A stretch of DNA of 64,000 nucleotides from Planctomycetota bacterium (GTDB lineage Bacteria > Planctomycetota > PUPC01 > JACPCR01), in contig JACPCR010000076.1 in assembly GCA_016179685.1 (NCBI GenBank), positions 1-64,000 of the forward strand. Reading direction: 5' to 3'. The translations under genes were made by a program, and so were the position numbers. Shown in pieces: positions 36,055 to 41,841 of the stretch. Under the pieces are notes generated by a model. The model searched no databases. It was not told where the DNA came from and worked only from the letters and a program-made list of their open reading frames with translations. Position 1 is the stretch's first letter; the number at the start of each line of letters is the position of its first letter.

Positions 36055-36135
36055 AGTTCTCAAACCGTGAAACTGCAACTCAAACTTAAAAGGGTCTTTC
36101 AACTTTGTCGCCCCAAGCGTCTAACTGCCTTCAAC

Positions 36136-36140
36136 GGAGG
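36136..36140 (+). promoter_or_regulatory. Shine-Dalgarno site selecting a TTG start
   Basis: GGAGG lies 9 bases ahead of the TTG at 36150 and is the only strong ribosome site in the 5' part of the DUF2760 frame. A TTG at 36105 has none. Confidence 0.65.
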
Positions 36141-36149
36141 AATTTCACC

Positions 36150-36659
36150 TTGTGTCGCCCGTGGTTCGCTTTCCGGTGCTTTTGTCGAATCCTCACGGAT
36201 ACGACCTTTTTTGAGAAGCTCTGCCGACTGACAGCCTCTGAACCAGAGCCAGAGGAAAAGGAGGATAAGAAGGGGGATATAAATTTTGAAGCAGTCCGCG
36301 TCCTTTCGCTTTTCCAGAGGGATGGCCGTCTCGTGGACTTTCTCCGTGAGGATATCCAGTCGTACGAAAACGCGCAGATCGGGGCCGCTGTGCGAAGCGT
36401 ACACCAGGGATGCCGGAAAGTCCTCGATGACTATTTTTCGCTCGAACCGGTAATGACGGAACAGGAAGGCGCGGTCGTGACGGTTCGCGCTGGTTTCGAC
36501 CCCTCGGCTGTTCGGCTCGTGGGGCAGGTGGCGGGGCAGCCTCCCTTTCGAGGTACGGTGAAACACCACGGCTGGCGCGTGGTTCGGTCGGCGCTGCCGG
36601 CTTCTCCGGAAGGTCAGGACAAGCACATCATAGCTCCAGCGGAAGTAGAGATTTCATAA
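36150..36659 (+). CDS. DUF2760-family protein
   Basis: 169 residues from the TTG at 36150. Conserved features of DUF2760 are visible: an acidic stretch after the N-terminus (ASEPEPEEKEDKKGDI), LSLFQRDGRLVDFLREDIQSY, GAAVRSVHQGCRKVLDDYF and PFRGTVKHHGWRVVRSALP. DUF2760 genes typically sit directly upstream of Hsp70-family genes, as here (1 base before the next start), so translational coupling is likely. Function is unknown, probably linked to the Hsp70 proteins. The N-terminus is hydrophobic (WFAFRCFCRIL) and could be a weak membrane anchor. Confidence 0.85.
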   Translation: MCRPWFAFRCFCRILTDTTFFEKLCRLTASEPEPEEKEDKKGDINFEAVRVLSLFQRDGRLVDFLREDIQSYENAQIGAAVRSVHQGCRKVLDDYFSLEPVMTEQEGAVVTVRAGFDPSAVRLVGQVAGQPPFRGTVKHHGWRVVRSALPASPEGQDKHIIAPAEVEIS

Positions 36660-36660
36660 G

Positions 36661-38490
36661 ATGGAAGCGACGCGCTATGTGGTAGGCATTGACTTGGGAA
36701 CGACGAACTCCGCTCTGGCCTGGGTCGATACAGGCGCTGGGGCGGGGCAGAACACTCGGGTCCAGGTGATGGCGATTCCTCAGCTCGTGCATCCGGGCGA
36801 GGTGCAGGAACGGCAGCTCTTGCCGTCGTTTGCTTATTTGCCGGGCTCGCAGGACCTGCCAGCAGGCAGTTTGAAGTTGGCGTGGACTTCGGCGCAGGAC
36901 TATGCGGTGGGCGAGCTGGCGCGTCTTCAGGGGGCGCTGGTGCCGCGGCGGCTGGTGGCGTCCGCCAAGTCCTGGCTCTGCCACGGCGGGGTGGACCGAA
37001 AGGCGGCCATTCTGCCCTGGGGCAGCGGGGACGACGTGGCCAAGATTTCGCCTGTGGAAGCTTCAACACGATACCTGGCACACCTCCGCGACGCCTGGAA
37101 TCACCGGATGGCCCGGGACGCCACGGCTCATCGCCTCGAGCTTCAGGAGGTCTATCTGACCGTTCCGGCGTCGTTCGACGCCGTGGCGAGGGACTTGACC
37201 ATGCAGGCGGCGGCCGCCGCCGGACTCGAACGCGTGACCCTGCTGGAGGAGCCTCAAGCCGCCTTCTACGCCTGGCTGGATGCCATGGGCGATGCCTGGC
37301 GCAAGGAGGTCAGGGTCGGTGACGTGATCTTCGTGTGCGACATTGGGGGCGGTACCACGGATTTTTCGCTGATCGGCGCAGGGGAGGAGGGCGGGAATCT
37401 GACGCTTCAGCGACTGGCGGTGGGCGAGCATATCCTGCTGGGCGGCGACAACATGGACCTGGCGCTGGCGCACTCGGTGAAGGCGAAGCTGGAAGCCAAG
37501 GGAAATCACCTGGACATGGGACAAACGCTGTCTCTCTGGCACGCATGCCGGATGGCCAAGGAGCGGCTCTTGAGCGAGCCCGAATGCGAGCGGCTGCCGG
37601 TGACGGTGGCCGGCAGGGGCAGTCGCCTGGTCGGCGGCACCCTCCAAGCGGAGCTGTCGCGGGACGAGGTGATGAAAGAAATCCTGGGGGGCTTTTTCCC
37701 GGCCTGTGGGGCGGAGGATCGGCCCTCGGCCCAGCGAAGGGCGGGTTTCCAGGAGCTGGGACTTCCTTATGCCTCGGACCCGGCCGTTCCGAAACACATC
37801 GCCCGCTTCCTTGGCGAGAGCCTGAAGGCTTCGGAAGGCCGCGGCCGGAAAGGCTCGAGCTTCGTGCACCCGACGGCGGTGCTGTTCAACGGAGGCGTAT
37901 TGAAATCCCCGTCGATTCAACTGCAGATCGTGGAGCTGCTCAATCGATGGCTCAAGGCGGAGGGCGGCAAGCCCGCCCGGGTGCTGAAGGGGGTGGACCT
38001 GGACCTGGCCGTAGGGCGTGGGGCGGCGCATTACGGGCTGGTCCGGCGCGGCACGGGCGTTCGGATACGGGGCGGCACCGCCCGAGCCTATTATGTCGGC
38101 GTCGAGACGGCCATGCCCGCGGTCCCGGGCAAGCGGCCGCCCATCAAGGCCCTGTGCGTCGTCCCGTTCGGCATGGAGGAAGGATCGGAAGCTGACGTTC
38201 CGGGTCCCGAATTCGGCCTCGTGGTCGGTGAGCCTGCGGAGTTCCGTTTCCTCAGCTCGACGACGCGGCGAGGCGACCAGGTCGGCACCCTGCTGGAGAC
38301 CTGGGAGGAGGAAGGGATCGAGGAGCTATCGCCCCTGGAAACGGTTCTGAAGGGGACGGGCCAGGAGGGCAGCGTCCTGCCGGTGCGTCTTCGAAGCCGC
38401 GTGACGGAGGTCGGAACGTTGGAACTGTGGTGCGTCGGGCGCGAACGGTCAGCTCGGTGGAAGCTGGAGTTCAATGTTCGCGCCGAATAG
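36661..38490 (+). CDS. Hsp70-family ATPase, first of two
   Basis: 609 residues. Actin-fold ATPase signatures are intact: GIDLGTTNSALAWVDTG (phosphate 1, residues about 9-25), CDIGGGTTDFSLI (phosphate 2), LLEEPQAAFYAW, GGDNMDLALA and VLFNGGVLKS (adenosine site). The C-terminal 150 residues are a beta-rich substrate-binding-like part; the usual DnaK helical lid is missing. This is the non-canonical Hsp70 group found in PVC and related bacteria, often with DUF2760, not DnaK itself. It is followed, after a decayed module, by a longer paralogue. No dnaJ or grpE is present in the window. Confidence 0.92.
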   Translation: MEATRYVVGIDLGTTNSALAWVDTGAGAGQNTRVQVMAIPQLVHPGEVQERQLLPSFAYLPGSQDLPAGSLKLAWTSAQDYAVGELARLQGALVPRRLVASAKSWLCHGGVDRKAAILPWGSGDDVAKISPVEASTRYLAHLRDAWNHRMARDATAHRLELQEVYLTVPASFDAVARDLTMQAAAAAGLERVTLLEEPQAAFYAWLDAMGDAWRKEVRVGDVIFVCDIGGGTTDFSLIGAGEEGGNLTLQRLAVGEHILLGGDNMDLALAHSVKAKLEAKGNHLDMGQTLSLWHACRMAKERLLSEPECERLPVTVAGRGSRLVGGTLQAELSRDEVMKEILGGFFPACGAEDRPSAQRRAGFQELGLPYASDPAVPKHIARFLGESLKASEGRGRKGSSFVHPTAVLFNGGVLKSPSIQLQIVELLNRWLKAEGGKPARVLKGVDLDLAVGRGAAHYGLVRRGTGVRIRGGTARAYYVGVETAMPAVPGKRPPIKALCVVPFGMEEGSEADVPGPEFGLVVGEPAEFRFLSSTTRRGDQVGTLLETWEEEGIEELSPLETVLKGTGQEGSVLPVRLRSRVTEVGTLELWCVGRERSARWKLEFNVRAE

Positions 38491-38557
38491 CGGGATTTCG
38501 AAATAGGGCGACCCCTTTTTAAGGCGGGCGAAGCGCGCAAACCAACAAGGCTGAAAA

Positions 38558-38603
38558 GGGTGTCTGGTGTCTGGAATCATCTGACACCCGACACCTGACA
38601 CCT
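38558..38603. repeat. Tandem and inverted GGTGTC repeat
   Basis: GGGTGTCTGGTGTCTG is followed after a short spacer by TGACACCCGACACCTGACAC, so two tandem septamer-like units face three inverted ones. The right end coincides with the truncated end of the nucleotidyltransferase remnant at 38602. Confidence 0.6.
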
Positions 38604-38772
38604 ATTCGAAATTTTGAGGATGGACGGCTATCCAGATGTCCAGGTCGGCAGCGGCCCGATGGTAGCCATGATCAGCCACCGCATATCCCCCGATGAGCAG
38701 GTGCTCAACTTGATGTGCGCTCAACAACTTCAAGAATTCTTTGAAGTCCGGAGGCGGTTTGACTGTATCCAT
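38602..38772 (-). pseudogene. Truncated nucleotidyltransferase (MNT-like antitoxin) remnant
   Basis: An ATG at 38772 opens 56 codons: PPPDFKEFLKLLSAHQVEHL, then IGGYAVADHGYHRAAADLDIW and a stop inside the GGTGTC repeat. The GGYAV...DLDIW block is the start of a minimal nucleotidyltransferase fold, whose family members are about three times longer. The catalytic second half is absent, so it is non-functional. It overlaps the 3' end of the 79-codon frame by 68 bases, an arrangement of a two-gene module. Confidence 0.75.
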
Positions 38773-38944
38773 AGTTCAGTTGACGCAAGGTCTCGACCCA
38801 TTGCAGGCGTTTCTCTGGTGATTGAGTGAGCCAATAGTCCTTCTCGCCTGATGGGTCACCGGGCGATGTAACCTGGAGAACCGTCTTATTCAACCCGGGA
38901 TGAACTAACTTGAGCGTCCATAAGGGTTTGCCCCCTGCTCGCAA
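38705..38944 (-). CDS. Small protein of nucleotidyltransferase module (possibly inactive)
   Basis: 79 residues with VTSPGDPSGEKDYWLTQSPE and WVETLRQLNYGYSQ, then LQRILEVVE. This pattern (TSP...YWL...SPEERL...VE.LR....G......LQR.L.VVER) is known from the gene preceding minimal nucleotidyltransferases in many bacteria. The start is a TTG directly after an in-frame TGA, and no good ribosome site is seen, so the N-terminus may be lost. It overlaps the truncated nucleotidyltransferase by 68 bases in a different frame. Function of the family is not known to me; it may be part of a toxin-antitoxin-like pair. Confidence 0.6.
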   Translation of the reverse strand: MRAGGKPLWTLKLVHPGLNKTVLQVTSPGDPSGEKDYWLTQSPEKRLQWVETLRQLNYGYSQTASGLQRILEVVERTSS

Positions 38945-39006
38945 TCAGGAAGACGAATCCCGCGTCCCTTCAACCGATAGCATAACGTGATTTGAATCCA
39001 CAGGCC

Positions 39007-41841
39007 ATGCCTGCATCCCGTTACATCGTTGGCATTGATCTGGGCACGACCAACTGTGTCGTCGCCTACTGGGACACCGGGCGTTCTGCGGGACCGAACG
39101 CGAGAATCCCGGTATGGGACATCCCGCAGGTCGTTGCGGCGGGTTGCGTTGAGGGCCGGCCGCGCCTGCCCTCGTTCCTTTACCTTCCCAGCCGCCACGA
39201 ACTGACACCGGGCGGTCTGGCGCTGCCCTGGGACCACAGCCGGGCCGAAGTGGTGGGCGAATTTGCACGTCGCCGGGGGTCCGAGGTGCCCGGCCGTCTC
39301 GTTTCTTCTGCCAAGTCTTGGCTCTGCCACGCAGGAGTGGACAGGAACGCTCCCATCCTGCCCCGGGGTGCGCCCGAGGACGTGGCCAGCGTCTCGCCCG
39401 TAGAGGCCTCGGCACGATACTTAACGCATCTCCGGGAGGCCTGGCACGCAGTCGTGGCGGGTAGCGACGAGTCTGCGCTCCTGGAGCGCCAGGAGATCAT
39501 CCTGACGATCCCGGCGTCGTTCGACGAGGTGGCCCGTGAACTGACGGTCGAGGCCGCCAGGCTGGCCGGGCTGGACCGCGTGACGCTCATCGAGGAGCCC
39601 CAGGCGGCCTTTTATGCGTGGCTTTCGCAGCACGAGGCTGAGTGGGAGAAGTTGGTGAAGCCGGGTCAGCTCATCCTCGTCTGCGACGTGGGCGGGGGGA
39701 CGACGGATTTCTCTCTGATCCGGGTCGAGCCGCGGAAAAGTCAGATAGGCTTCCGCCGTGTGGCAGTGGGGGAGCACCTGCTCCTTGGCGGGGACAACAT
39801 GGACCTGGCGCTGGCGGCGGAACTCGAACCGGTATTGGCCGGGCAGGGCCGCCGACTGGATGTGGTGCAGTGGTCGATGCTCCGGCATGCCTGCCGTTCG
39901 GCCAAGGAGACTCTCCTGTCGCCCGCGGGTCCCGAGAGCGTGAGCGTGTCCCTGCCGGGCCGAGGCAGCGCCCTGGTGGGCGGCACGCTTCGATGCGAGC
40001 TTCGACGCGAGCGTGTGGTCCGGTGTCTGCTCGACGGGTTTTTCCCCCTGACGGCGCGAAAGGAGATGCCGCGGCGCGAGACCCGGACTGCGCTCCAGGA
40101 GTTTGGACTGCCTTATGCCCAGGACCCGGCGGTCTCCCGGCATCTTGCCGCGTTCCTGAGGACGCCAGGGACAACAGGCGGGGAAGGCTGGCGTCGGCCC
40201 GATCTCGTTCTTTTCAACGGAGGGGTATTCAAGGCCGAAATCATTCAAGAACGGATTCTGAAGTTGCTGGTCTCTTGGTTTCCGGAAGGCAGGGTGCCGG
40301 CGCTTCTGCGCGCGGAGGCCGACGATCTGGACCTGGCTGTGGCCCGGGGCGCGACCGCGTACGGCCGGGTCCGGCGCGGCCGAGGAGTACGCATCGGAGG
40401 GGGAAGCGCGCGGAGCTTCTACATCGGGCTGGCCGTCTCCGCCCCGGAAGACGTGGCGGGCGCGCCGACAGCGCCGCTCGAGGCCCTTTGTGTTGCGCCA
40501 CAAGGTCTTGAAGAAGGCGAAGAAGTCGAGGTGGCCGGCAGAGCATTCGAGCTGCGCATCAAGAGTCCCGTCGCCTTCCCTTTCTATACCTCGAGTACGC
40601 GGCCGCTGGACCGCTTGGGCGAATTGATACCCGTGCAGCCCGAAACCCTGCGGCCGCTGCCGCCCGTTCAAACCGTGCTGCAGGCGGGCCGGAAATCCCA
40701 AGAGGAGCAGGTCCGGGTCCGACTCCAATCGGTCCTGACCGAAGTGGGGACCCTGGAAATCTGGTGCGTGAGCCTGGACGGCAGCAGGCGCTGGCGGCTG
40801 AGGTTCGATGCCCGCCTCGGCGCGGAACAAGAGTTGGCCGAGGCATCCCGGGCCGGGCCCGTTGCCGAGGAGGAACTCGTGGATGCGGCTCGGCTCGAGC
40901 GGGGCCGTGCCCGCATCCGGGAAACCTTTGCGTCGCATCCGGCCACCGCGGGCCGCGAGCAGCGGCCCGCGGGGCTGATGAAAAACCTGGAAACCGTCCT
41001 CGAACTTGGCCGGCAGCGTTGGCCGCCGGGCGCTCTTCGCGGCCTCTGGCCCGCGGTGCTGGAAGCGGCCGGACGGAGGATGGCTGACCCCGCCTGGGAG
41101 ATTCGGTGGCTCAATTTGGCTGGGCTGGTGCTTCGGCCCGGTTACGGCTATCCCCTGGACGAATGGCGCATCCGGCATCTCTGGCGGATTTTCGACGAAG
41201 GCATCGCCCATCCCAAGGACGTGCAGGCACGCATCGAATGGTGGATCATGTGGAGGCGGGTAGCCGGCGGGTTGTCCCGCGCACAGCAGGCCGAGCTGTT
41301 CCGGAGGATGTGCCCTCACCTGATTCCGGATGGCCATGGCGGGCAGCAGGGGCACGGGACGCGGAAGCCGTCCCAGGAAGATGTGGAAAGATGGAGGGCG
41401 GTGGCGAGCCTCGAACGATTGTCCGCCAGGGAGAAGCGCCGCCTGGGTGACCTGCTGGCGGCCCGGGCGGGCAGCGGTCGCGTCCTTCCGCATGAAATCT
41501 GGGTGCTGGGCCGGCTGGGGGCGCGGATGCCCTTCTACGGCCCCCTGGATACCGTGGTGAGCCTCGAAGCGGCGGAGTCCTGGATTCGGAAACTGCTGGC
41601 GCACCGGAGCGCGGCGGCGGCGGGAACCTGCCTGGCTCTGGTGGAGCTAGCCCGGATGAGCGGTGACCGCGAGCGCGACGTGGGAGACGGTCTGAGGGCC
41701 GAGGTGCTCGAGAGGCTGCGGGCCGATAAGGCCCCGGCCCGCTTCATCCAGCTTGTCCGTGAAGTCGTCCCTCTGCACGAGGATGAGCAGGCCCTGGTCT
41801 TCGGAGAGTCGCTACCGCCCGCGCTGAGACTGGTTACTTGA
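39007..41841 (+). CDS. Hsp70-family ATPase with long C-terminal extension (DUF3731-like)
   Basis: 944 residues from the ATG at 39007. The first 600 residues parallel the preceding Hsp70: GIDLGTTNCVVAYWDTG, CDVGGGTTDFSLI, GGDNMDLALAAEL and VLFNGGVFK. The additional 350-residue C-terminal region (from about ELVDAARLERGRARIRETF) is helical with WPAVLEAAGRRMADPAWEIRWLN and WIMWRRVAGGLSRAQQ, matching the DUF3731 region known from this Hsp70 subgroup. It is a paralogue of the upstream gene in the same direction, now separated by 516 bases holding the remnant module. Likely a chaperone-like ATPase with an own substrate-recognition part. Confidence 0.92.
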   Translation: MPASRYIVGIDLGTTNCVVAYWDTGRSAGPNARIPVWDIPQVVAAGCVEGRPRLPSFLYLPSRHELTPGGLALPWDHSRAEVVGEFARRRGSEVPGRLVSSAKSWLCHAGVDRNAPILPRGAPEDVASVSPVEASARYLTHLREAWHAVVAGSDESALLERQEIILTIPASFDEVARELTVEAARLAGLDRVTLIEEPQAAFYAWLSQHEAEWEKLVKPGQLILVCDVGGGTTDFSLIRVEPRKSQIGFRRVAVGEHLLLGGDNMDLALAAELEPVLAGQGRRLDVVQWSMLRHACRSAKETLLSPAGPESVSVSLPGRGSALVGGTLRCELRRERVVRCLLDGFFPLTARKEMPRRETRTALQEFGLPYAQDPAVSRHLAAFLRTPGTTGGEGWRRPDLVLFNGGVFKAEIIQERILKLLVSWFPEGRVPALLRAEADDLDLAVARGATAYGRVRRGRGVRIGGGSARSFYIGLAVSAPEDVAGAPTAPLEALCVAPQGLEEGEEVEVAGRAFELRIKSPVAFPFYTSSTRPLDRLGELIPVQPETLRPLPPVQTVLQAGRKSQEEQVRVRLQSVLTEVGTLEIWCVSLDGSRRWRLRFDARLGAEQELAEASRAGPVAEEELVDAARLERGRARIRETFASHPATAGREQRPAGLMKNLETVLELGRQRWPPGALRGLWPAVLEAAGRRMADPAWEIRWLNLAGLVLRPGYGYPLDEWRIRHLWRIFDEGIAHPKDVQARIEWWIMWRRVAGGLSRAQQAELFRRMCPHLIPDGHGGQQGHGTRKPSQEDVERWRAVASLERLSAREKRRLGDLLAARAGSGRVLPHEIWVLGRLGARMPFYGPLDTVVSLEAAESWIRKLLAHRSAAAAGTCLALVELARMSGDRERDVGDGLRAEVLERLRADKAPARFIQLVREVVPLHEDEQALVFGESLPPALRLVT

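Follow-up and report, generated by a model that had tools for sequence, protein, structure and literature searches.

The junction between the two tandem Hsp70-like genes of the window (the whole stretch of 64,000 nucleotides that was analysed) probably records the entry of a foreign two-gene nucleotidyltransferase module, the enzyme gene of which was then cut at the edge of a hairpin element. What is left of the module are two small ORFs on the minus strand, lying between the plus-strand genes A and B. The features of the locus are as follows:

36105–36659, plus strand: DUF2760 gene, the first in the conserved cluster and outside the insert (Pfam PF10816, E 8.7e-51)
36661–38490, plus strand: Hsp70-like gene A (609 aa), flanking the insert on the left (Pfam HSP70, E 7.4e-16)
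38519–38610, plus strand: hairpin element, short-form copy (match of covariance model R1 to 38519–38607, 103 bits; 38608–38610 by comparison)
38602–38772, minus strand: start of a DUF6036/DUF2204-like nucleotidyltransferase gene, of which the 5' third remains (56 of about 150 codons; match to an intact homologue, E 1.9e-17)
38705–38944, minus strand: partner ORF, 79 codons from TTG (alignment; match to the partner ORF that precedes an intact homologue, E 2e-10)
38886–38921, minus strand: ATG preceded by GGGGG, opening a frame of 11 codons and a stop (frame translations and ATG position)
39007–41841, plus strand: Hsp70-like gene B with DUF3731, flanking the insert on the right (Pfam HSP70, E 2.8e-17; DUF3731, E 6.4e-83); ATG start at 39007, with TTG 38992 as a possible alternative

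A truncated nucleotidyltransferase with an overlapping partner of 79 codons, both running against the Hsp70 genes, had been predicted here. Its coordinates proved to be exact, and both ORFs score far above the best of 500 sequences obtained by dinucleotide shuffling of the 516-nt gap (73.6 vs 24.3 bits for the nucleotidyltransferase remnant and 55.8 vs 21.9 bits for the partner). The GC content of the insert is 0.53 vs 0.61 for the whole window. The GC3 values of its two ORFs (0.60 and 0.48) are lower than those of the Hsp70 genes (0.80 and 0.78), which is consistent with foreign origin. Promoter and terminator scans of the Hsp70-Hsp70 gap revealed none of these signals.

The Hsp70-Hsp70 junction in relatives

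The synteny of the cluster was compared in 15 loci with DUF3731 from the same phylum and in 9 loci from outside it. The order DUF2760-Hsp70-Hsp70(DUF3731) is conserved; a homologue of the DUF2760 gene is present in 17 of the 24 relative loci searched, and Hsp70 A shares 66% identity with its homologue from G001. The Hsp70 genes are in tandem in 9/15 in-phylum loci with an estimated gap between –32 and +69 nt (0 nt in G001 of the same family, as well as 48, –32, 69, –8, 67, –9, 52 and –19 nt), whereas in the window they are separated by 501 nt. As for the remaining in-phylum loci, gene A is missing in the stretch or the locus is cut by contig ends in L043, L048, L050, L052 and L053, and at L045:4229-9488 (G110) the Hsp70 genes are divergent rather than tandem. 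Neither the nucleotidyltransferase nor the partner was found at the Hsp70-Hsp70 junction of any of the 24 relative loci. This supports the original prediction, in which the pair is often adjacent elsewhere and appears to be split here. A weak partner-like match near the Hsp70 locus of L040 lies inside a hydrolase-like ORF (named by eye) and was dropped as a chance hit.

Outside the phylum the gap could be measured in 8 of the 9 loci and amounts to 18, 39, 112, 209, 230, 172, 142 and 389 nt, so a long junction by itself is not unique. The longer junctions belong mostly to Desulfobacterales MAGs, and some of them hold other hairpin repeats; e.g., the junctions of L085, L086 and L088 (Desulfobacterales) contain a hairpin repeat of another kind, with the heptads GGTTCAG / CTGAACC. 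On a more tentative view, repeat-rich Hsp70-Hsp70 junctions in other lineages would mean that elements of this sort settle at the junction repeatedly. No genome of the same genus was present among the relatives searched, and for this reason neither the insertion nor the cut can be dated.

The nucleotidyltransferase remnant

The 56 residues of the remnant are 56% identical to the intact protein of G002, and the window's partner matches (E 2e-10) the ORF that overlaps the start of this G002 protein. The alignment with intact homologues shows that it corresponds to the first ~54 residues of a nucleotidyltransferase of ~150 residues. The last homologous residue is Asn54, while the final two codons and the stop of the ORF are read into the adjoining hairpin repeat. 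About 100 codons are gone, among them those around the last catalytic carboxylate (RIE/RVD in the homologues), and the ~28 nt that separate the repeat from the stop of Hsp70 A hold no visible trace of the lost part. The active site of nucleotidyltransferases consists of a GG motif, a D-x-D motif and a later carboxylate. The remnant retains GG and DLD, but the later D/E falls in the lost part; therefore, judging by its sequence, it should be catalytically dead, which would leave no catalysis in the window. The conserved stretches of both small ORFs are free of stops, which speaks against much decay apart from the cut itself.

In a direct HMM search the remnant reached no Pfam or NCBIfam family, and it is absent from the 14 PF01909 matches of the genome. 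Since it matches no curated family itself, it is identified through the intact homologues and is filed here as a remnant of these proteins and not as a family member by HMM. The intact homologues align over most of the models of the DUF6036 (PF19502) and DUF2204 (PF09970) nucleotidyltransferases with scores around the cut-off: 24.9 bits vs 23.6 (DUF6036) and 21.5 vs 20.3 (DUF2204) for L094, 23.1 vs 20.3 (DUF2204) for L097, and 20.2 vs 23.6 (DUF6036), i.e. below the cut-off, for L010. They are thus not clearly members of either family, and the remnant matches neither of the two. A search of the structure database with the sequence of the intact L094 enzyme gave no match. The proposed check of the remnant by HMM was negative when done directly, and it succeeded through the intact homologues, which are nucleotidyltransferases near DUF6036/DUF2204. 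The designation "MNT-type" has to be changed in that the protein is not an MNT of the HEPN-partnered kind.

The hairpin element at the break

The right end of the element, as judged from other copies, directly adjoins the point where the nucleotidyltransferase gene is cut, and the stop codon of the truncated ORF comes from the element; on the other side, ~28 nt separate the element from the stop of Hsp70 A. Five GGTGTC/GACACC words are found in 38559–38602, which is the densest cluster of the 40 present in the window. They form one hairpin with arms of 21 nt (81% complementary), and the folding z-score of the region 38490–38615 is –4.9. The break does coincide with the GGTGTC repeat, as had been noticed before; the repeat itself turned out to be the second hairpin of a dispersed element and hence one copy of a large family.

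Some 40 copies of this element are recognizable at the DNA level in the genome G000. The covariance model R1, built from 18 copies, gives at least 150 matches in this 7.2-Mb genome (one pair among the matches listed overlaps on opposite strands). Among 10 relatives, one marginal match was found in each of G001 and G004 and none in the other 8. Comparison of the flanks of 41 copies, the window's included, shows that in the full form a third hairpin is present and the 3' end is shared, resembling CCCTAAGACTCT. The third hairpin is missing from the copy in the window, which is thus a short form; some others (L061, L069, L180 and L186) are of this type too. Copies with two to three hairpins were seen at L054-L073, L140 and L143-L189 of G000. 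The covariation counted for the two modelled helices is weak support, because the alignment had been fitted to the structure and because the palindrome matched itself on the reverse strand in 24 of the 67 rows. No Rfam family scored above the threshold in 38300–39100, the single match near the site being below it.

Placed between Hsp70 A and the cut end, the element forms the outer margin of the insert, only ~28 nt from the Hsp70 stop. Such a position is also what would be expected if the fragment had arrived already cut, i.e. if a copy of the element together with the joined nucleotidyltransferase start and the partner had been pasted between the Hsp70 genes (for example, by recombination or by mobilisation of the element), the module never having been whole at this junction. 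The element is numerous and therefore evidently spreads, which would favor this route. On the other hand, the other edge of the insert carries no copy of the element and no matching repeat, and no nucleotidyltransferase or partner sequence was recognized by eye beside the 40 other copies with flanks; an arrival in the cut state is unlikely. Of the original proposal that the module was inserted whole and then decayed, the splitting of the Hsp70 pair is supported by the data, and arrival of the whole module before its decay appears to be the simplest order of events.

The partner ORF and intact pairs in other genomes

Partner and nucleotidyltransferase genes were searched for in a sample of 294 genomes of the phylum. 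The partner gave 19 matches in 18 genomes, and in 14 of these matches (that of the window included) it is overlapped by a whole or cut nucleotidyltransferase gene. Two matches (G274 and G046) appear to be partner-only, and three (G146, G149 and G248) are weak and have no recognized nucleotidyltransferase. The homologous enzyme is commoner than the partner (128/294 genomes), although its weaker matches may include other groups of nucleotidyltransferases. In the intact modules the gene of the partner (60–85 residues) precedes that of the enzyme, and its end overlaps the enzyme start; in L010, for instance, a 70-aa partner overlaps an intact nucleotidyltransferase of 153 aa by 71 nt. The overlap is 53–83 nt in all 14 aligned pairs, and its length is always 2 modulo 3 (the nucleotidyltransferase start was trimmed in 4 of the 14 rows). 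With 68 nt in the same frame, the two ORFs of the window fit the 53–83 nt of the 13 other pairs.

Among the plasmids searched, the partner was found in two records from outside the phylum, and phages gave 0 matches. In a cyanobacterial (Geminocystis) plasmid a homologous pair is embedded in the operon of a type I restriction system, next to VapC. A partner-only copy was seen on a Pseudanabaena plasmid. Partner genes without an adjoining nucleotidyltransferase of the homologous family are located at L092:1492-1701 (G274), L098:1465-1698 (G046) and L190:2501-2722, so the partner may exist alone. A second cut nucleotidyltransferase of the same family was observed at L095:1471-1873 (G216), where the partner is intact and an unrelated tail follows after ~42 residues of the enzyme; this gene is downstream of a Y1-transposase-like ORF (835–1344) recognized by eye.

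No credible Pfam family was found for the partner (12 aligned homologues were scanned), and none of the members tested belongs to an NCBIfam or PADLOC family, the one PADLOC match (E 0.035) being not credible. A search of the structure database by sequence with the partner profile likewise gave nothing credible, its top rows being stretches of 12–13 residues of designed barrels.

The conserved part of the window's partner begins near 38893, and its frame is open from TTG codons only, while the ATG at 38921 is out of frame with it. This ATG may be the old start of the partner. As it is preceded by GGGGG and opens another frame, it suggests, without proving it, that the partner too is disrupted at its N-terminus. 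The same features bear on the possibility that only the nucleotidyltransferase is dead and that the partner remains functional by itself, as an antitoxin to which no toxin is left. Its conserved ~60 residues are indeed free of stops, the family residues Trp29, Arg37, Glu42, Arg45, Gly50 and Gln59 are kept, and the partner-only copies mentioned above seem to exist. Against this, the displaced ATG leaves only TTG starts, the nearly invariant Glu36 is changed, and no sigma-70-like promoter was matched in 38450–39050 (a weak argument, since 0.4 matches are expected by chance). A partner still at work is quite unlikely.

Interpretation of the locus

The genome is a draft of 137 contigs (90% complete) and the break falls at a repeat, but a false break created by joining contigs through this repeat is highly improbable, since a random join would not leave Hsp70 A and B flanking the break in the order and direction seen in relatives, and since the element copies are distinguishable (the others are at most 87% identical to that of the window, except for three stretches of 26–49 nt of one locus with 88–94%).

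The preferred explanation, entry of a whole module followed by the cut, can be presented as follows. A two-gene nucleotidyltransferase module of foreign origin would have entered the tandem Hsp70 junction of the DUF2760-Hsp70-Hsp70 cluster, facing the other way. Where a copy of the lineage-specific hairpin element ends, the enzyme gene would then have been broken off after about 54 codons, and the last ~100 codons would have been lost. By analogy with known modules, translation of the partner and the nucleotidyltransferase may be coupled in the intact module, and the small partner may act as an antitoxin or an activator of a nucleotidyltransferase toxin or modifier.

The locus offers a clear example of a mobile module of two genes that landed in a conserved cluster and was broken at a repeat. 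Such a fossil is real and of an ordinary kind; the partner family, which has no name, and the amplification of the element are newer. The conserved small partner has no family model among those searched, and it makes the intact pairs testable as toxin-antitoxin systems. The copy number of the element, about 150 or more with hardly any copies in relatives, is a separate and perhaps more unusual feature of the lineage. A bolder reading would see in the partner an unnamed family that forms, with DUF6036/DUF2204-like nucleotidyltransferases, a widespread toxin-antitoxin-like module, and in the locus a record of how a recently amplified element of three hairpins inactivated this module; we regard it as tentative and rather doubtful.

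Comparison with known systems

REP/RAYT and MITE-type repeats are short, dispersed, palindromic hairpin elements of bacteria. The element of the window resembles them in being short, dispersed and palindromic, in its number of copies and in having no visible coding capacity; it differs in its core of ~90 nt, in the third hairpin of its full form and in having no Rfam match at the window copy. The linkage to a Y1 transposase gene that marks RAYT-type REPs was not seen, as the motif of the first hairpin occurs at 0/8 Y1_Tnp loci (up to ~1.5 kb on each side), and mobilisation by the Y1 transposases of this genome was rejected on these grounds.

The combination of a nucleotidyltransferase with a partner gene recalls the AbiE and MenAT systems (AbiEii, type IV), as described in the accessible parts of PMC3985639 and PMC11375011. 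The defence-system library gave no match to the ORFs of the window and only weak, partial AbiEii matches, below the cut-off, to the intact homologues. No AbiEi model of PADLOC or Pfam matched the partners scanned. In the portions of the literature on DUF6036 nucleotidyltransferases and toxin-antitoxin systems available to us, no function of the intact pair was found and DUF6036 is not mentioned; the available portions of that on nucleotidyltransferase pseudogenes with REP/MITE and on DUF3731/DUF2760/Hsp70 contain nothing on this locus.

Classical MNT (PF01909) was considered and rejected, since neither the remnant nor any of the intact homologues scanned matched it. A HEPN partner was rejected as well, there being no HEPN match in Pfam for the window's partner or its 12 aligned homologues. 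The MNT-HEPN systems (type VII), as far as the available parts of PMC2701414 and PMC11586414 describe them, are nevertheless similar in that a small nucleotidyltransferase belongs to a mobile two-gene module, sometimes located inside operons. The difference is that the partner here has 60–85 residues and no HEPN match in Pfam and stands before the enzyme gene with a long overlap. By likeness to such modules, the pair of the window probably is of the toxin-antitoxin type. More specifically, the analogy with MNT-HEPN (PMC2701414) and MenAT (PMC11375011), both as covered in the accessible text, makes it the likeliest reading that in the intact module a growth-modulating or toxic nucleotidyltransferase would be restrained by its translationally coupled partner. 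We give this reading about an even chance; the Geminocystis plasmid lends it thin support from context. According to the part of PMC2701414 available, MNT-HEPN pairs interrupt operons of one strain, and the sister strain lacks them; insertions of MNT-type modules into operons have thus already been described, and the event proposed here is of a known kind.
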